In this document: one piece after another, positions 301-14,135 of the stretch
How positions within the stretch are numbered: the first letter of the stretch is position 1
How the letters are laid out: each line of letters opens with the position of its first letter
Assembly (NCBI GenBank): GCA_009780985.1
Contig: WQYZ01000025.1
Location: 1 to 35,318, forward strand
Source of the DNA: Oscillospiraceae bacterium
Lineage (GTDB): Bacteria > Bacillota > Clostridia > Oscillospirales > WRJC01
Direction: 5' to 3'
DNA length: 35,318 nt
The notes under the pieces: model-generated
What the model was told of the DNA's origin: nothing
The model's database searches: none
What the model saw: the letters and a program-made list of their open reading frames with translations, nothing else
Position numbers and translations under genes: made by a program

Positions 301-654
301 TTAAAGAACCGCTTTAGCTTTTTCAACTAACGCCGCGAACGCGGTTTTGTCAGAAATAGCAATTTCCGATAGCATTTTTCTGTTCAGCATTATTCCCGCT
401 TTTTTCAGACCGTTCATAAATCTTGAATAATTTATCCCGTTTATTCTTGCCTGAGCTGAAATTCTTGTTATCCAAAGCGTTCTGAAATCTCTTTTTTTAT
501 GTTTTCTGCCGACAAAAGCATAATTGCCGCTTTTCATCACTGCCTGTTTAGCCATCTTAAAATGCTTGGATTTTGCTCCCCAGTATCCTTTAGCGGCTTT
601 TAACATTTTATTTCTTCTTTTGCGCGTTGTAACTGCGCCTTTTATTCTTGCCAT
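301..654 (-). CDS. rplT: 50S ribosomal protein L20
   Basis: L20 binds 23S rRNA early in assembly of the large subunit and, in many bacteria, represses its own operon. The product of 117 residues starts [18 protein letters not shown] and contains the L20 signatures [25 protein letters not shown] and [14 protein letters not shown]. The track starts 15 codons earlier, but the ATG at 654 is preferred: it gives the usual L20 N-terminus and length, and has GAGAGGAG just upstream. It lies 69 nt after rpmI on the same strand and is followed by a hairpin terminator. Nothing in the protein looks degraded. Confidence 0.97.
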
Positions 655-723: not shown

Positions 724-921
724 TTACGAATAGGGCATAAGCTTTTTTATAGCGTCTGCGTTCGCTTCGCTGATATATGCTCCTTTTTTAAGATGTCTTA
801 TTCGTTTGGTGTCCTTGAGATGAACCTGATGGCGTCTGTTTTGACGCATATATTTTATTTTTCCTGTTTTTGTGAAACTAAAACGTTTTTCAGCCGACTT
901 GTGAGTTTTTATCTTGTTCAT
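724..921 (-). CDS. rpmI: 50S ribosomal protein L35
   Basis: This is a small basic ribosomal protein of 65 residues, the usual length for L35. The start MNKIKTHKSAEKRFSFTKTGKIK is the L35 signature (KTHxxxxKRFxxTxxGKIK), and the C-terminal half keeps the KDTKRIRHLKK block. An AAAGGA Shine-Dalgarno lies about 11 nt before the ATG. The normal neighbour upstream is infC, but here a solute-binding protein gene lies between them. rpmI and rplT may therefore depend on readthrough from the infC promoter or on a promoter I could not identify. Confidence 0.96.
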   Translation of the reverse strand: MNKIKTHKSAEKRFSFTKTGKIKYMRQNRRHQVHLKDTKRIRHLKKGAYISEANADAIKKLMPYS

Positions 922-970
922 TTTTACATCAATCCTTTCTTTAAAAATTTATTTATATTAAACTATAAAC

Positions 971-987
971 ACTGAGCGCAGCTCAGT
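971..987. terminator. Perfect 7-bp hairpin between solute-binding protein gene and rpmI
   Basis: ACTGAGC-gca-GCTCAGT is a perfect stem in the gap between the solute-binding protein stop and the rpmI Shine-Dalgarno. On the minus strand it is followed by GTTTATAGTTTAAT, a poor U-tract, so it would be a weak terminator, a processing site or an mRNA-stabilising end rather than a strong stop. Confidence 0.4.
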
Positions 988-1006
988 AGATTAATATCTA
1001 AAATTA

Positions 1007-2500
1007 TTATGATTGCGCACCCGTAAATATTGCTACCGTTTTGTCCATAGCCGCCTGCGCTGTGCCTTGTAACGCTTCAAATTTTGATGTAAAACTCTGT
1101 CCCTTATCTAAGGTGGCGACAAAACTGTCGAAAATTCCGCCCCAGTTGTAGATATCTCCAAAATCGTAGCACGAACCGGCAAAAATTATATCGAGCATCG
1201 ATTCGCTGTCGGTGTCCCTCGAATATTTTGATTTAAGAGTGACGTCGTATGCCGCCGGAGTTGACGTGTATCTGCCCGCCATGGCAAGCGCCTCTATAAT
1301 CATGCCTGTGCGGTCTATATTTGAATTTGTTTGCGGGACGCATACCGCCGCGCTTCCCCACGGCTGACAGTACGAATAATAGTCGGCTTGATTTTCGTCA
1401 TATTTGGGCATCGGAATTATGCCGAAATCTGAGTTCATATCTCTGAACATAGATATATTTGTGCCTGTCTGCGGCAGGAACAATAACTGGTCGTTTTTAA
1501 ACATTGTCACTTCTTCATAGCTCTGATAATTCGTCGTATAGTACATATACGCGGAATTACCCATAAAAGACGCCAATTTGTCCATAATGGTATTTGCCGT
1601 GTCATTGTTCACATTAAACGCCGGATTTCCGTCCTGTATTTTGATAATCGACCCGCCGGCGCCGGCATATAATAAATACGAACTTTGGTATCCGTAAAAT
1701 CCGTAAAAGTCGGATTTATCGAGTGTTCCATCGCCGTTTAAATCTTTTGTCTTGTCTTTTATCAGGCTTTCGAATGCGTCAAGCGTCCATTTGCCATCGA
1801 GCACCGACTGATACGGATAATCAAGACCCATATTGGTAAACAGATTTTTATTGAAGAGCAGCACATATTGCGATCCTGGGTATCTCGCGGTTATATCGCC
1901 CGTCGGGAAATAGAATTTGCCGTCTATAGTAAGATCGCGGATTGCGTATTTGCTCCAGCACGGCTGAGTCAAATCGACGTGCGGTATCGTGTTAAAATCA
2001 TATATAGCTCCGGTTTGAGCGAGCCCTTTCGTCACATTCATCATATCTCCCATAGCAAAATCGAACGCGTCGTCTCCCGCCTTTACGGAGTTTGACGCCT
2101 TTGTGGTGAACTGACTGTAATCCTCTATCAGAGTGTATTGAATATTAATGTTATACTTTGCCTCTACAAGCTGGTCGCGCGTATAGAGAGCGTCGTTGAT
2201 CGGCTCTCCCGTCTGTTCTTCATCAGGAGCCTGCCGACCTTCGAGAGTGGCGTTAAACCAGTTTGACGTCCAGATATTGAACTGATATCCGCCGTAGTCT
2301 GCAGCGGGAAGCCCCGCCACTATATCAGAGGCGTTGGCTTGCGTCGTTTCTTCTGTTGCGCCGTTAGCCCCGTTTCCATTGTTTTGGGTGTTGTTATTGT
2401 CCGAGCTGTTTTTATTGCCGGAATTGCTGCATGAAAACATTGTTGCAATAACAAATATGCTTATGAGCAATATACATATAGTGCGCGTAATTTTTTTCAT
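1007..2500 (-). CDS. Extracellular solute-binding lipoprotein (orphan ABC receptor)
   Basis: This is a 497-residue ABC-type extracellular solute-binding protein. It has a lipoprotein signal (MKKITRTICILLISIF...) with lipobox MFSC at residues about 21-24, then an Asn/Ser/Gly-rich linker typical of Gram-positive surface lipoproteins. Family-like blocks include GKFYFPTGDIT, LFNKNLF, GKWTLDAFESL and a calcium-loop-like DLNGDGTLDKSD. It resembles carbohydrate-binding receptors of ABC importers, but the ligand is unknown. No permease or ATPase is adjacent. A paralogue lies at 12615-14135. Its position is odd: it sits between infC (60 nt upstream) and rpmI (85 nt downstream) on the same strand, inside what is normally an uninterrupted ribosomal operon. 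An AAGGGG Shine-Dalgarno precedes the ATG. Confidence 0.88.
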   Translation of the reverse strand: MKKITRTICILLISIFVIATMFSCSNSGNKNSSDNNNTQNNGNGANGATEETTQANASDIVAGLPAADYGGYQFNIWTSNWFNATLEGRQAPDEEQTGEPINDALYTRDQLVEAKYNINIQYTLIEDYSQFTTKASNSVKAGDDAFDFAMGDMMNVTKGLAQTGAIYDFNTIPHVDLTQPCWSKYAIRDLTIDGKFYFPTGDITARYPGSQYVLLFNKNLFTNMGLDYPYQSVLDGKWTLDAFESLIKDKTKDLNGDGTLDKSDFYGFYGYQSSYLLYAGAGGSIIKIQDGNPAFNVNNDTANTIMDKLASFMGNSAYMYYTTNYQSYEEVTMFKNDQLLFLPQTGTNISMFRDMNSDFGIIPMPKYDENQADYYSYCQPWGSAAVCVPQTNSNIDRTGMIIEALAMAGRYTSTPAAYDVTLKSKYSRDTDSESMLDIIFAGSCYDFGDIYNWGGIFDSFVATLDKGQSFTSKFEALQGTAQAAMDKTVAIFTGAQS

Positions 2501-2559
2501 ATTAATTTAATCCCCTTAATATATTTCTCTGCGTATAATTAAAAAATACGGCGCAGGCT

Positions 2560-3252
2560 TCATTTTAAAACCTTTTCTTCCGCGTCTTCTGTTTCGGGTT
2601 CATTAGTATTAGTAATTTCGACTGAGCCGTTATTTTCGTTGTCGTCATTAATGTCGCTGTCATTTTGATTATCATCTCCTTTAAAATCCTGCTTATCGGT
2701 ATTTTTATTGGAAATACCGGAAGCCGGCTCTGGTTTCACTTTTTTTGGCGCGATAAACATAGTTATTTTCCGCCCCTCGCGTACCGGTTTTTTTTCTACA
2801 ATACTGAAATCAAGACAAGCCTGCTCGAATTTTTCAAGCATTTGGTAACCGAATTCCATATGGGCCATTTCTCTGCCTTTTGCGAATTCCAAGCAGATTT
2901 TTACTTTATTTCCCGCTTCGATAAACTTTCTTGTCTGGCTGAGCCTCGTGTTAAAATCGTGTATGCCTATGCGGCATGTGAGCTGTATTTCTTTTGTTTC
3001 TACGACAACTTGTTTTTTCTTAGCTTCTTTTTCTTTTTTAGCTTTTTCAAACTTATACTTGCCGTAGTCCATAATTCTGCACACAGGAATCTGGGCTGTA
3101 GGCGCAATCTCGACCAAATCCATCCCTTTTTCCAATGCCATATTCAGCGCGTCTCTTGTCTTCATAACGCCGAGCTGGGCTCCCTGGCTGTCCACAACTC
3201 TCACCTGAACCGCTCTGATCTCATTATTGATAGAAAGTTCTCTTGTACTTAT
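2560..3252 (-). CDS. infC: Translation initiation factor IF-3, probable AUA start and acidic C-terminal tail
   Basis: IF-3 binds the 30S subunit, keeps it apart from the 50S and rejects non-canonical start codons. The track starts at GTG 3204, but that removes the conserved N-terminus: the frame continues upstream as STRELSINNEIRAVQVRVVD, which is the standard IF-3 opening. No ATG, GTG or TTG lies before it. TGGAGGT (3261-3267) sits 8 nt before ATA at 3252 and 5 nt before a second ATA at 3255. I therefore propose AUA initiation, in keeping with the unusual AUU starts known for infC elsewhere. Both IF-3 domains are complete, with the basic linker KFEKAKKEKEAKKK and the normal end MFIAPKK. A 59-residue Asn/Asp/Glu-rich tail follows. 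Transcription comes from a consensus promoter through an attenuator-like leader. Confidence 0.93.
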   Translation of the reverse strand: MSTRELSINNEIRAVQVRVVDSQGAQLGVMKTRDALNMALEKGMDLVEIAPTAQIPVCRIMDYGKYKFEKAKKEKEAKKKQVVVETKEIQLTCRIGIHDFNTRLSQTRKFIEAGNKVKICLEFAKGREMAHMEFGYQMLEKFEQACLDFSIVEKKPVREGRKITMFIAPKKVKPEPASGISNKNTDKQDFKGDDNQNDSDINDDNENNGSVEITNTNEPETEDAEEKVLK

Positions 3253-3260
3253 TATAAAGC

Positions 3261-3267
3261 ACCTCCA
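3261..3267 (-). promoter_or_regulatory. Shine-Dalgarno site deciding the infC start
   Basis: TGGAGGT on the minus strand is near-perfectly complementary to the 16S rRNA tail. It is 5 and 8 nt upstream of two in-frame ATA codons and more than 55 nt from the first GTG, so it points to initiation at ATA. Confidence 0.75.
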
Positions 3268-3295
3268 AAAATAAAAAACAAATAAATTAATAAAA

Positions 3296-3424
3296 TAATA
3301 AAAAATGCGCCGAAATTACAAATTCCGACACTTCCCCGCACATATATAATTAACAATTAATAATATTAACCAATACAACCATAAGTGTATGGTGAGAACG
3401 GAGAAGTTCTACTTCTTTTTACAA
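3296..3424 (-). promoter_or_regulatory. infC leader with attenuator (L20-leader-like)
   Basis: The transcript from the promoter at 3431-3459 should begin near 3424 and run about 160 nt before infC. It can form two mutually exclusive small hairpins: AGAAGT-aga-ACTTCT (3402-3416) and AGAAC-ttctcc-GTTCT (3395-3410). A further hairpin ACCATA-cact-TATGGT (3378-3393) follows. A terminator-like stem (3306-3333, core GTCGGAATT-tgt-AATTTCGGC with G-U pairs) is then followed by TTTTTT at 3300-3305. In Bacillus subtilis L20 represses infC-rpmI-rplT by transcription attenuation in the leader. The arrangement here fits that model, but I could not test it against the L20-leader covariance model. Confidence 0.6.
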
Positions 3425-3430
3425 TACAAG

Positions 3431-3459
3431 ATTATACCACAATATATTTTTTTTGTCAA
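3431..3459 (-). promoter_or_regulatory. Consensus sigma-A promoter for the infC locus
   Basis: On the minus strand TTGACA (3454-3459) and TATAAT (3431-3436) are separated by exactly 17 nt. Both boxes match the housekeeping consensus perfectly, as expected for a highly expressed translation operon. Confidence 0.88.
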
Positions 3460-10135: not shown

Positions 10136-10169
10136 ATATATTATATTAAATACATAAGGAGTGATTCTG

Positions 10170-10994
10170 TTGAAGAAATTTTCAATATTTTCAGTATTTA
10201 TTTTATTATTTCTAATCGTATTACCGATATTTACAGCAGCCGGCTGTGCGTCTGCGACCGGCAAACTGGCAAAAATTCAAAGTAAAGGCGAAATTGTGGT
10301 GTACACCGACCCCAATTTTCCTCCTTTTGAATCCTCAGACGGCAACGGGGTTAAGGGAGTGGATATTGAAATTGCCAAGGCTATTGCAACGGAACTTGGC
10401 GTGACGGCTACGTTTAAAGAGGCAAATTTTGACTCGATTTTAATGGCTATAAAAGGCGGCAAGGGCGATATCGCAATTTCAGGTTTTACTATTACGGATG
10501 AACGGAAGAAAAGCGTGGATTTTTCGGAACCGTATATCGAATCTGTGCAATATTTAATTCTGCCGAATGATTCGACCATTGCAGTTATGGAAGATTTAGC
10601 CGGAAAAAGAGTCGGAGTGGCGAAAGGCTACACAGGTCAGTTTTTAATGGACAGTGAAACAAGTAAGGACGATAATGGCAATGCGGGAGTTTTATATAAC
10701 AAAAACACGCAAATTAAAGAATATAACAGCGCAATGGAGGCAGTATTGGACATGAACGCGGGAAGAATTGACGCCGTAGTAATGGACCAGTATGTGGCGG
10801 AAAATATTGTGTCGCAGAACGCCGACATTCAGGCAATAGAATTAGTTTATCAAAACGGAAGTGCCGCTTCCGAAGAATATGGAGTGGCGGTTCCGAAAGG
10901 CAACGAGGATTTAGTGGAAAAAATAAATCAGGTGATTGAACAGCTCAAAGCAGATGGGAAAATTCCCGAATGGATGGTTCAATTTTCTCAATAA
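10170..10994 (+). CDS. Polar amino-acid ABC transporter, substrate-binding lipoprotein
   Basis: This is a family-3 periplasmic-type receptor of 274 residues. It has a lipoprotein signal with lipobox TAAGC, then the typical opening GEIVVYTDPNFPPFES, NGVKGVDIEIAKAIA and GDIAISGFTITDERKKSVDFSEPY, which is the family signature for binding of polar amino acids. VGVAKGYTGQF and the DAVVMDQYVAE block complete the second lobe. The track begins at GTG 10161, which overlaps the AAGGAG ribosome site; TTG at 10170 lies 8 nt after that site and gives a normal signal peptide, so it is chosen. It heads a three-gene importer operon. Which amino acid is bound cannot be decided from sequence. Confidence 0.9.
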   Translation: MKKFSIFSVFILLFLIVLPIFTAAGCASATGKLAKIQSKGEIVVYTDPNFPPFESSDGNGVKGVDIEIAKAIATELGVTATFKEANFDSILMAIKGGKGDIAISGFTITDERKKSVDFSEPYIESVQYLILPNDSTIAVMEDLAGKRVGVAKGYTGQFLMDSETSKDDNGNAGVLYNKNTQIKEYNSAMEAVLDMNAGRIDAVVMDQYVAENIVSQNADIQAIELVYQNGSAASEEYGVAVPKGNEDLVEKINQVIEQLKADGKIPEWMVQFSQ

Positions 10995-11016
10995 CGATTA
11001 ATGTATATTTTTATTT

Positions 11017-11064
11017 GTATGGGCGGACATGCTGAACAGAGTTCGGCAATTCGTCCGCCTATAC
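11017..11064. repeat. Long imperfect palindrome between receptor and permease genes
   Basis: GTAT, GGCGGAC and GCTGAAC pair with GTTCGGC, GTCCGCC and (A)TAC around a 3-nt AGA loop, with small internal bulges. The structure begins 22 nt after the receptor stop. Hairpins at this place in ABC importer operons can protect the upstream mRNA and keep receptor levels above permease levels; that role is inferred. It shares the GGGCGG/CCGCC core with other palindromes here. Confidence 0.72.
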
Positions 11065-11112
11065 TTTCTGTCTGAATAAAAATCGTATATTTTGGGAGAA
11101 AATTAAAAAATT

Positions 11113-11823
11113 ATGAAACAAGTATGGGATTGGCTGACTTATCAAATTCATATTACTTTTGTCGAAGCAGACCGTTATAAGCTGTTTTTGGAAGGTTTCC
11201 GCAATACGCTTATAATAGCGGTAGGCGCGGCGGCAATCGGCGTAATAATCGGTTCGATAGTGGCGATGGTGCGCGTATATCATGCGCAGACTGGCCGCCT
11301 GAAAATCATCGATGCTGTGTTTGGCGCGTACTTGGCGGTATTCCGCGGCACGCCTATTGTAGTCCAGCTTTTAATCATGTATTATATCGTTTTCCAAAGC
11401 GTCGACAACGGTTTGATTGTGGCAGTTCTGGCGTTCGGTATCAATTCAGGCTCATATGTGGCGGAAATTATCCGCGCCGGGATCTTAGCCGTCGATATCG
11501 GTCAGACTGAAGCCGGACGCTCGCTTGGATTGTCCGCTTTAAAAACCCTGACGCTTATCGTACTGCCGCAGGCGGTTAAAAACATTCTGCCGGCGTTGGG
11601 CAACGAGTTTATCACGCTGCTGAAAGAAACATCGGTTGCCGGATATGTTGCGATAAGGGATTTGGCAAGGGCGGGCGAGAATGTGCGTTCCGTCACTTTG
11701 GAACCGTATTTTTCGCTTCTGTTTATCGCGTTGGTCTATTTTATTTTGGTGCTTTGCCTGACTAAACTGCTTAAAATCGCTGAAAGGGGGCTGGCAAAAA
11801 GTGACAGAAGTAATAGGCGTTAA
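11113..11823 (+). CDS. Polar amino-acid ABC transporter permease
   Basis: This is a HisM/GlnP-type inner-membrane permease of 236 residues with several hydrophobic helices. It carries the family blocks [37 protein letters not shown] and the EAA loop [42 protein letters not shown], which contacts the ATPase. The start is the first ATG; the best Shine-Dalgarno-like match (GGGAG) is about 14 nt away, so the site is weak. The 3' end overlaps the ATPase gene by 23 nt, a sign of coupled translation. Codon usage is visibly richer in G and C than in most of the window, as is the ATPase gene. Confidence 0.93.
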
Positions 11824-12532
11824 AGATTTACATAAAAGTTTCGGTGAAATTGAGGTATTGAAAGGCATTAATTACACTGTTAATAAAGGCGAAAAAATCG
11901 TTATTGTCGGTCCGAGCGGCTCCGGCAAAAGCACTTTTCTGCGCTGCCTTAATCTTCTGGAACAGCCGACTTTCGGACAAATTGTTTTTGACGGGGAGGA
12001 TATTACCCATGCGAATAAACGTCTGAATCAGGTGCGGCAGAAAATGGGCATGGTCTTTCAGAATTTTAATTTATTCCCGCATTTAACCGTGAGAAATAAT
12101 ATCACATTGGCGCCGGTTCAGCTTAAAGTAATGAGCGGCGAAGAAGCGAACCGCCGCGCGGACGCTCTGCTGACCCGTATCGGTCTGTTGGATAAAGCCG
12201 AAACTTACCCGAATATGCTTTCGGGCGGGCAGAAACAGCGCATTGCCATTTTGCGGTCATTGGCTATGAATCCCGACGTTATGCTGTTTGACGAGCCAAC
12301 ATCCGCTTTAGACCCCGAAATGGTGGGCGAGGTTTTATCGCTGATGAAAGACTTAGCCGCCGACGGCATGACAATGATTGTGGTGACGCATGAAATGGGG
12401 TTTGCCAAAGAAGTGGCGACAAGCGTGCTGTTTATGGACGGAGGTCAGATTTTGGAGGAAGCTCCGCCGGAGCAGTTTTTCACATCCCCCAAACACCCGC
12501 GATTAGTGGATTTTTTATCTAAAGTGCTGTGA
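11801..12532 (+). CDS. Polar amino-acid ABC transporter ATPase
   Basis: The 243-residue ATPase powers the importer encoded just upstream. All nucleotide-binding motifs are present: Walker [11 protein letters not shown]-loop [14 protein letters not shown], signature [11 protein letters not shown], Walker [15 protein letters not shown] and switch His VVTHEMGF. These are the hallmarks of the GlnQ/HisP group. Initiation is at GTG with GAAAGGGGG about 10 nt upstream, inside the end of the permease gene. A hairpin with a T-run follows the stop by about 35 nt. Confidence 0.95.
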
Positions 12533-12614: not shown

Positions 12615-14135
12615 TTATTGAAAAGCAGCCAGAAATGTATCGAGAGCTTTCTGATATTTATTTATGTTCTGGTCGTATTCTGACGCAAATTTGAACGAGG
12701 CGTCATTTACGCATGTGCGAACCATCCAGCCGGCATTGCCAAGCTGAGATGAAAATACTATTCCGAAATCGCAACTCAAGCCTTGGCGGATAATATCAAG
12801 CATGTCTTTGGACTCGTCGTCTCTAGCATATTTGCTCTTTAACGCTATATCGTAATATGCGGGAACAACGATTTTATTGCTTGCAACACATAACGCTTCA
12901 GTTATCAGTCCGGTAAAGTCAACATCTTTTACGTCAACAGGTATTCCGAACATAGTATGCTGGTCGCGTGACGAAGTTTTATACTGAGCCTGGTCTTTTG
13001 TCTGTTTAGGGTACGGCAGTATACCAAAATCCGTTTCAGTAGCTCTTAACTTTTCCGCGTCGCTTAATGTCGTCGGGAAAAATAAAATCTGATTGTCGGC
13101 GAACATATTGAGAACCATAGCGAGCAGTTGGTCATACTGATTGGAACTTATTAATTTTTTGAAATCAGGATTTTGACCGGTGTATGTCATACTGTCCGTA
13201 GAAGTCGCGAGATTATACATTGTCTGCGCCAAATTTAACACTTCCGGCGAGCCGAGATTAAAATACGGCACGCCCTTATCATCTTTCAATGTTGTCGGAA
13301 TATTGAACGCATTATGAAAATTGTTGAAAAACAAATCGTCGTCAAACAGCGCGCCGTACCGGTCTTCGCTGTACATTTTGCCGTCGCCGTTTAAATCTGC
13401 CGATACCCCTTTACACATCTCAATCATTTTATCGAGCGTCCATTCGCCATTTTTTACGAGAGTATACGGGTCGTCAAGATTGAAATTTTTAAGCATTCCT
13501 TTGTTAAAAAATATCACGTAAATAGTTTCCCAAAGATTTGTGGTTATATCGCCGGGCACAATATACAGTTTTCCATTTATCGTAAGTTCGTTGACGGCGT
13601 TCTGTGACCACCACGGTTCAGTCAGCCGCAAATGCGGGACGTCGAGAAGATTAAGATATAAGCCCGCGCTTATCATATTGCCTATATACGCCTCGTAGCC
13701 GTCAACCAAATCATATGCTCCGTCGCCGGACATGATTGAAGCTTTCAGCGTATTTATAAAAGTATCCTGATCCCCCCATTCCCCGGGAACAGGTATAACG
13801 TTTATTTTTACGTCATATTTATCTTCTACTGTCTGATTGCGTTTGAATACTGCGTCGTTTATAACGTCCCCGTTTTCTTCTTCGACGGAAAACTGCGCAA
13901 CCTGCGACGCTCTGGACATGATGTTAAACTCTCTTCCGTCATATGTTTTTTCGTCAAGGCCGTCGAATATATTTTCGGCGGTTGTCGTATTTTGGCTTGC
14001 GCCGTCGGATATATCGACGGCGGACGTGTCTGATTTATTATTGTCCGTATTGCTTTTGCTGCCTCCGCACGCCAAAAACAAAGGCAGAAGAACAACAATC
14101 ACGCCAATCAACGCTATTTTTTTCATTTTATTCAT
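12615..14135 (-). CDS. Extracellular solute-binding lipoprotein, paralogue of the gene at 1007-2500
   Basis: The 506-residue lipoprotein has signal MNKMKKIALIGVIVVLLPLFLAC with lipobox FLAC, then an Asn/Ser/Thr-rich linker. It aligns along its length with the receptor in the infC locus: YDGREFNI, GDVINDAVFKRNQTVEDKYDVKI, LYIVPGDITT, VIFFNKGML, GEWTLDKMIEM, DLNGDGKMYSEDRYG and SKYARDDESKDMLDII all have counterparts there. The Asp-rich loop resembles an EF-hand. It is probably an ABC receptor for a carbohydrate or other organic solute, but no permease or ATPase gene is adjacent: the neighbours are the amino-acid importer (convergent) and fchA (divergent). GAAAGGAT precedes the first ATG. The ligand is unknown. 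Confidence 0.87.
   Translation of the reverse strand: MNKMKKIALIGVIVVLLPLFLACGGSKSNTDNNKSDTSAVDISDGASQNTTTAENIFDGLDEKTYDGREFNIMSRASQVAQFSVEEENGDVINDAVFKRNQTVEDKYDVKINVIPVPGEWGDQDTFINTLKASIMSGDGAYDLVDGYEAYIGNMISAGLYLNLLDVPHLRLTEPWWSQNAVNELTINGKLYIVPGDITTNLWETIYVIFFNKGMLKNFNLDDPYTLVKNGEWTLDKMIEMCKGVSADLNGDGKMYSEDRYGALFDDDLFFNNFHNAFNIPTTLKDDKGVPYFNLGSPEVLNLAQTMYNLATSTDSMTYTGQNPDFKKLISSNQYDQLLAMVLNMFADNQILFFPTTLSDAEKLRATETDFGILPYPKQTKDQAQYKTSSRDQHTMFGIPVDVKDVDFTGLITEALCVASNKIVVPAYYDIALKSKYARDDESKDMLDIIRQGLSCDFGIVFSSQLGNAGWMVRTCVNDASFKFASEYDQNINKYQKALDTFLAAFQ

Follow-up and report, generated by a model that had tools for sequence, protein, structure and literature searches.

Gene order at the infC locus

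The window analyzed here, the whole 35,318-nt stretch of contig WQYZ01000025.1, carries on its minus strand infC, a gene for a solute-binding protein (SBP), rpmI, and rplT in that order, with intergenic gaps of 59, 85, and 69 nt. The features of the locus, in the direction of transcription, are as follows.

3431-3459, minus strand: sigma-70-type consensus promoter (TTGACA-17-TATAAT, TG preceding the second hexamer; 12/12 matches)
3295-3420, minus strand: putative L20-interacting leader (RF00558), attenuator terminator included (cmscan)
3331-3307, minus strand: attenuator terminator before infC (terminator scan; fold of -11.9 kcal/mol)
2560-3252, minus strand: infC, translation initiation factor IF-3 (TIGR00168, 200 bits, E 2.5e-59)
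2501-2559, minus strand: infC-SBP spacer, which came with the insert (unlike the ancestral infC-rpmI spacer)
1007-2500, minus strand: SBP, the inserted gene for a predicted CUT1-type sugar-binding lipoprotein of 497 aa, an orphan paralog (family profile and predicted structure)
922-998, minus strand: spacer of the ancestral infC-rpmI junction, which now separates SBP from rpmI and holds the rpmI ribosome-binding site (shuffle test, blastn)
988-970, minus strand: hairpin in the SBP-rpmI spacer (8 pairs, -10.2 kcal/mol)
724-921, minus strand: rpmI, ribosomal protein L35 (TIGR00001)
301-654, minus strand: rplT, ribosomal protein L20 and presumed autoregulator (TIGR01032, E 3.8e-47)

The matches to TIGR00168, TIGR00001, and TIGR01032 bear out the gene order proposed in an earlier note on this DNA. 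That note gave the gaps on either side of the SBP gene as 60 and 85 nt; the second figure is exact and the first measured 59 nt. Its limits for the unit, 724 to 3252, leave out rplT, which is part of it. The three translation genes keep their order on one strand, but their contiguity is broken by the SBP gene.

For comparison, G000 denotes the genome of this contig, which belongs to an uncultured member of the Clostridia, and G001 and G002 the two other genomes of its genus. G002 is the public record WRHM01, Oscillospiraceae bacterium Nt197P3bin116, whose isolate name we take to indicate a termite gut sample. The infC start (3250-3262), served by the ribosome-binding site GGAGGT, is apparently AUA in the window and in G001 and AUC in G002; rare start codons are a known habit of infC, which these apparent starts fit.

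The inserted receptor

Scans of the SBP itself against Pfam and NCBIfam gave no match. A profile built from 60 SBP paralogs matched AbnE, an arabino-oligosaccharide-binding protein (6rjy, E 6e-11), and an AlphaFold model of the SBP (mean pLDDT, 90.8; pTM, 0.85) had AbnE as its best PDB match in Foldseek (E 2.3e-15; TM, 0.54/0.62), followed by other sugar-binding proteins. By its predicted fold, the SBP is a CUT1-type sugar receptor. Its N terminus resembles a signal peptide and Cys24 is invariant in the 60 paralogs, which indicates a putative lipoprotein; a simple pattern search found a lipobox-like motif in 63 of 72 SBPs. The SBP shares only 63% identity with its nearest paralog, and no cognate permease pair lies near the gene. 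The window encodes another SBP paralog (12615-14135; PF01547; 34% identity to the first), which is oriented convergently to a polar amino-acid ABC operon (10161-12532) and likewise has no permeases of its own.

Insertion point and lineage specificity

In all 29 relatives in which the rpmI neighborhood was read, including G001 and G002, infC, rpmI, and rplT are contiguous. The premise that this operon is normally uninterrupted was therefore upheld, and the comparison of related genomes, suggested earlier as a way to date the insertion, places it in this lineage only.

The 85-nt SBP-rpmI spacer aligned over almost its full length with the infC-rpmI spacer of G002, and none of 2,000 shuffles aligned as well; the matching blocks read GATATTAA...CTACT...TATAGTTTAATATAA...TTTAAAGAAAGGATTGA. 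With the 30 bases adjoining rpmI removed, the count was again 0 of 2,000 shuffles, and with 20 or 25 removed it was 11 and 17, respectively. The infC-SBP spacer behaved differently, as 1,116 of 2,000 shuffles reached its alignment with the same G002 spacer. The only blastn matches of positions 922 to 998 that stood clearly above background were to the infC-rpmI spacers of G001 (E 2.9e-5) and G002 (E 4.6e-4), and positions 2501 to 2559 had no matches beyond chance among the loci compared. The SBP-rpmI spacer is therefore the ancestral infC-rpmI spacer, the insertion point of the SBP gene lies no more than about 8 nt from the infC stop codon, and approximately 59 nt of DNA from upstream of the gene came with it.

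We considered and rejected a transposon or other mobile element: the two flanks have no repeat of more than 7 nt in common, and neither a target-site repeat nor a mobile element was found. No flanking DNA was shared beyond chance between this and other SBP loci. A G000 contig (C93) syntenic with contig C9 of G002 has the first SBP of the C9 cluster and lacks the one closest to the window SBP, which is suggestive, not proof, of a move from that site; the tree leaves the sister of the window SBP without resolution.

It is important to note that G000 is a draft MAG (387 contigs, 88% complete, 6% estimated contamination) whose roughly 90 SBP paralogs could mislead an assembler, so that the SBP segment might have been wrongly joined between infC and rpmI. 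A closest paralog at 63% identity means, however, that there is no long exact repeat to cause a false join. Moreover, two wrong joins would have been needed, restoring the operon order on both sides: infC is 74% identical to that of G001, rpmI and rplT are 78% and 90% identical to theirs, and all stand in the right order and strand on either side of the SBP. The ancestral spacer is intact and begins right after the SBP stop codon, the GC content of the SBP gene (0.451) fits that of the other SBPs of the genome (mean, 0.438; sd, 0.017), and a comparable insertion, the cmk-plsC-ispH-rpsA sister case described below, is common to two independently binned genomes. We consider a misassembly highly improbable.

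Putative L20 leader, promoter, and terminators

In Bacillus subtilis, L20 attenuates infC-rpmI-rplT through a terminator that is stabilized when L20 binds (PMC6097659). The window likewise has a promoter, a putative leader, and an attenuator terminator upstream of infC and the same gene order, but differs in the 1.5-kb receptor gene between infC and rpmI and in a leader score under the Rfam cutoff. The leader covered the full model (1-127) at 51.1 bits (E 1.9e-9), compared with a gathering score of 58.7. Of 20 relatives from the order, 8 also have an RF00558 match before infC, at 34 to 50 bits, and the window leader outscores all of these. G001 and G002 have almost the same leader core, and TTGACA and TATAAT are invariant in both.

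Downstream of the leader, we found no convincing promoter. Neither the infC-SBP nor the SBP-rpmI spacer has a minus-strand promoter-like site of at least 9/12 matches, and the promoter-like sites found (18 versus 12.6 expected; sd, 3.7) were near the chance number. The 59-nt segment upstream of SBP has a -10-like TATATT with a poor -35, and a 10/12 site lies within the SBP gene at 1212-1185. No strong terminator separates the genes. The hairpin noted earlier between the receptor and rpmI does exist, but its tail is a short, broken T run (TTTATAGTTT) that makes a poor terminator. Because of this tail, and because the ancestral spacer already lay there, the proposed role of the hairpin in tuning readthrough is speculation.

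Two readings of the locus had been offered: that the receptor was captured under attenuation control, or that rpmI-rplT gained another promoter. The second has no sequence support above chance. The first holds as to the interrupted operon and the leader, promoter, and terminator; its single transcript is what we infer. On these sequence features, cotranscription of the receptor gene under L20 attenuation appears to be the simplest reading, because the operon is interrupted here and uninterrupted in relatives, the leader, promoter, and terminator lie upstream of infC, no promoter-like site in the spacers reaches 9/12 matches, and the hairpin has a poor tail. We counted against it the leader score under the Rfam cutoff, a hairpin of this stability between SBP and rpmI, a possible weak promoter in the 59-nt segment or within the SBP gene, and the draft state of the MAG.

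Alternatively, the insertion could be neutral and simply reflect rapid turnover of SBPs, with an SBP promoter in the 59-nt segment, a new internal promoter for rpmI-rplT, and no link to L20. The nonancestral 59 nt that came with the gene and the 10/12 site inside it would fit this explanation. However, the near-chance number of promoter-like sites, the lack of a threshold-level site in either spacer, and the lack of a strong terminator between the genes all argue against it, and we think it unlikely.

SBPs within other operons

We read the neighborhoods of 69 complete SBPs by region. More than half (38 of 69) lay at most 150 nt behind a same-strand gene, 21 of the 69 were flanked in this way on both sides, and several dispersed paralogs sit within housekeeping operons. 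In G000, one SBP lies between plsC (gap of 3 nt) and ispH-rpsA (gap of 12 nt), and its sister occupies the same place in G002, whereas none was found at this site in four relatives from the order with a readable operon (L202, L203, L210, and L211). The two cmk-plsC-SBP-ispH/rpsA loci (L161:1070-5584 and L073:63-4503) put an orphan SBP in another translation-linked operon in two genomes. In G000 and G001 alike, a further SBP comes after dapB and an aspartokinase-like ACT gene. Insertion of this kind recurs in the genus, and the infC case is therefore the most striking instance of a general scatter and not a unique accident.

Among approximately 15 well-supported SBP sister pairs, only 5 share any neighboring gene within the limited flanks compared. 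SBP positions therefore turn over, as the neutral explanation of the infC insertion would have it.

SBP expansion and scarce permeases

The larger and more general finding is the orphan SBP expansion itself. G000 has approximately 93 matches to the window SBP, 84 of them at an E value of ≤1e-30; G002 has 66 matches and G001 has 30. In one genome from each of nine other families of the order, no match reached E ≤1e-30. The G000 genome is 4.9 Mb, compared with 2.0 to 2.6 Mb in the two relatives, and has correspondingly more SBPs; part may be contamination (6%). Literature searches found no report of an orphan SBP expansion in termite-gut Clostridia. Bug proteins are binding proteins of the tripartite tricarboxylate transporter type. 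As orphan periplasmic binding proteins in Bordetella (PMC11452294), they also form a large lineage-specific family with mostly unassigned functions, but they are periplasmic, whereas the SBPs described here are putative CUT1-type lipoproteins of a Clostridia lineage.

Permease domains (PF00528) number only 15 in G000, 11 in G002, and 15 in G001, and the permease loci read belong, by gene content, mostly to phosphate, amino-acid, and polyamine systems. Two CUT1-like permease pairs are present, on contigs C90 and C124 of G000 and adjacent to each other on contig C8 of G002, next to a DUF5696 protein. In G002, both pairs and proteins of 1,132, 761, and 1,011 aa form one cluster (L227:2287-15119), and the homologous G000 loci encode DUF5696 and beta-propeller (NHL) proteins. 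It is possible that this cluster is a shared uptake hub for orphan receptors. All three genomes of the genus also have a stand-alone MalK/MsmK-like ATPase gene (L230, L232, and L228).

In Streptococcus pneumoniae, one MsmK energizes several CUT1 importers (PMC3302838). In both systems the MsmK-like ATPase is encoded away from the receptor genes and the SBPs have a similar fold (AbnE and MalE type), but the pneumococcal CUT1 SBPs have two permeases each, whereas here dozens of lone SBPs face few permease pairs. From the retained CUT1 pairs, the stand-alone ATPase, and the pneumococcal precedent, it is plausible by analogy that many receptors share few permeases.

The dispersed SBPs may alternatively be permease-free surface lipoproteins that bind or sense glycans, one of them held constant by a ribosomal operon. 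Ninety-three SBPs against 15 permease domains, mostly of amino-acid, phosphate, and polyamine systems, and the many SBPs that adjoin catabolic genes favor this alternative; the fold, which is that of importer sugar-binding proteins, and the retention of two CUT1 permease pairs and an MsmK-type ATPase do not. We hold it to be possible but rather doubtful.

Discussion

Few gene clusters are better conserved than ribosomal operons such as infC-rpmI-rplT, and in this lineage one of them has probably subjected a nutrient receptor to the feedback that governs ribosome synthesis. In the account that we favor, and regard as reasonably likely as a whole, a single SBP gene of the expanded, genus-specific family was inserted, or translocated, just after the infC stop codon together with about 59 nt of its upstream sequence, became coregulated by L20, and feeds shared permeases. 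The four genes would be transcribed together, as one mRNA, from the promoter at 3459-3431. L20 bound to the leader would favor the terminator at 3331-3307 and so lower infC, SBP, rpmI, and rplT together, while RNA polymerase that passed the SBP gene and the weak hairpin would supply the essential L35 and L20. Joint attenuation of all four genes would therefore make receptor output proportional to ribosome synthesis rather than responsive to its sugar. For uptake of its ligand, the SBP would probably rely on a shared CUT1 permease pair, of which there are few (C90 and C124), and the stand-alone MsmK-type ATPase would energize that pair.

A broader and more tentative reading is that interchangeable orphan receptors feed few permeases and that some, placed in translation operons, are set by ribosomal-protein feedback and not by substrate. 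Its two cases would be the window SBP under L20 attenuation and another SBP in the ispH-rpsA operon; taken jointly, we find this somewhat unlikely.

A precisely datable receptor insertion with its leader retained offers a natural test of whether uptake genes can co-opt ribosomal-protein feedback. At the level of the genus, many receptors with few permeases make the idea of many receptors for one transporter testable in a Gram-positive-type lineage.
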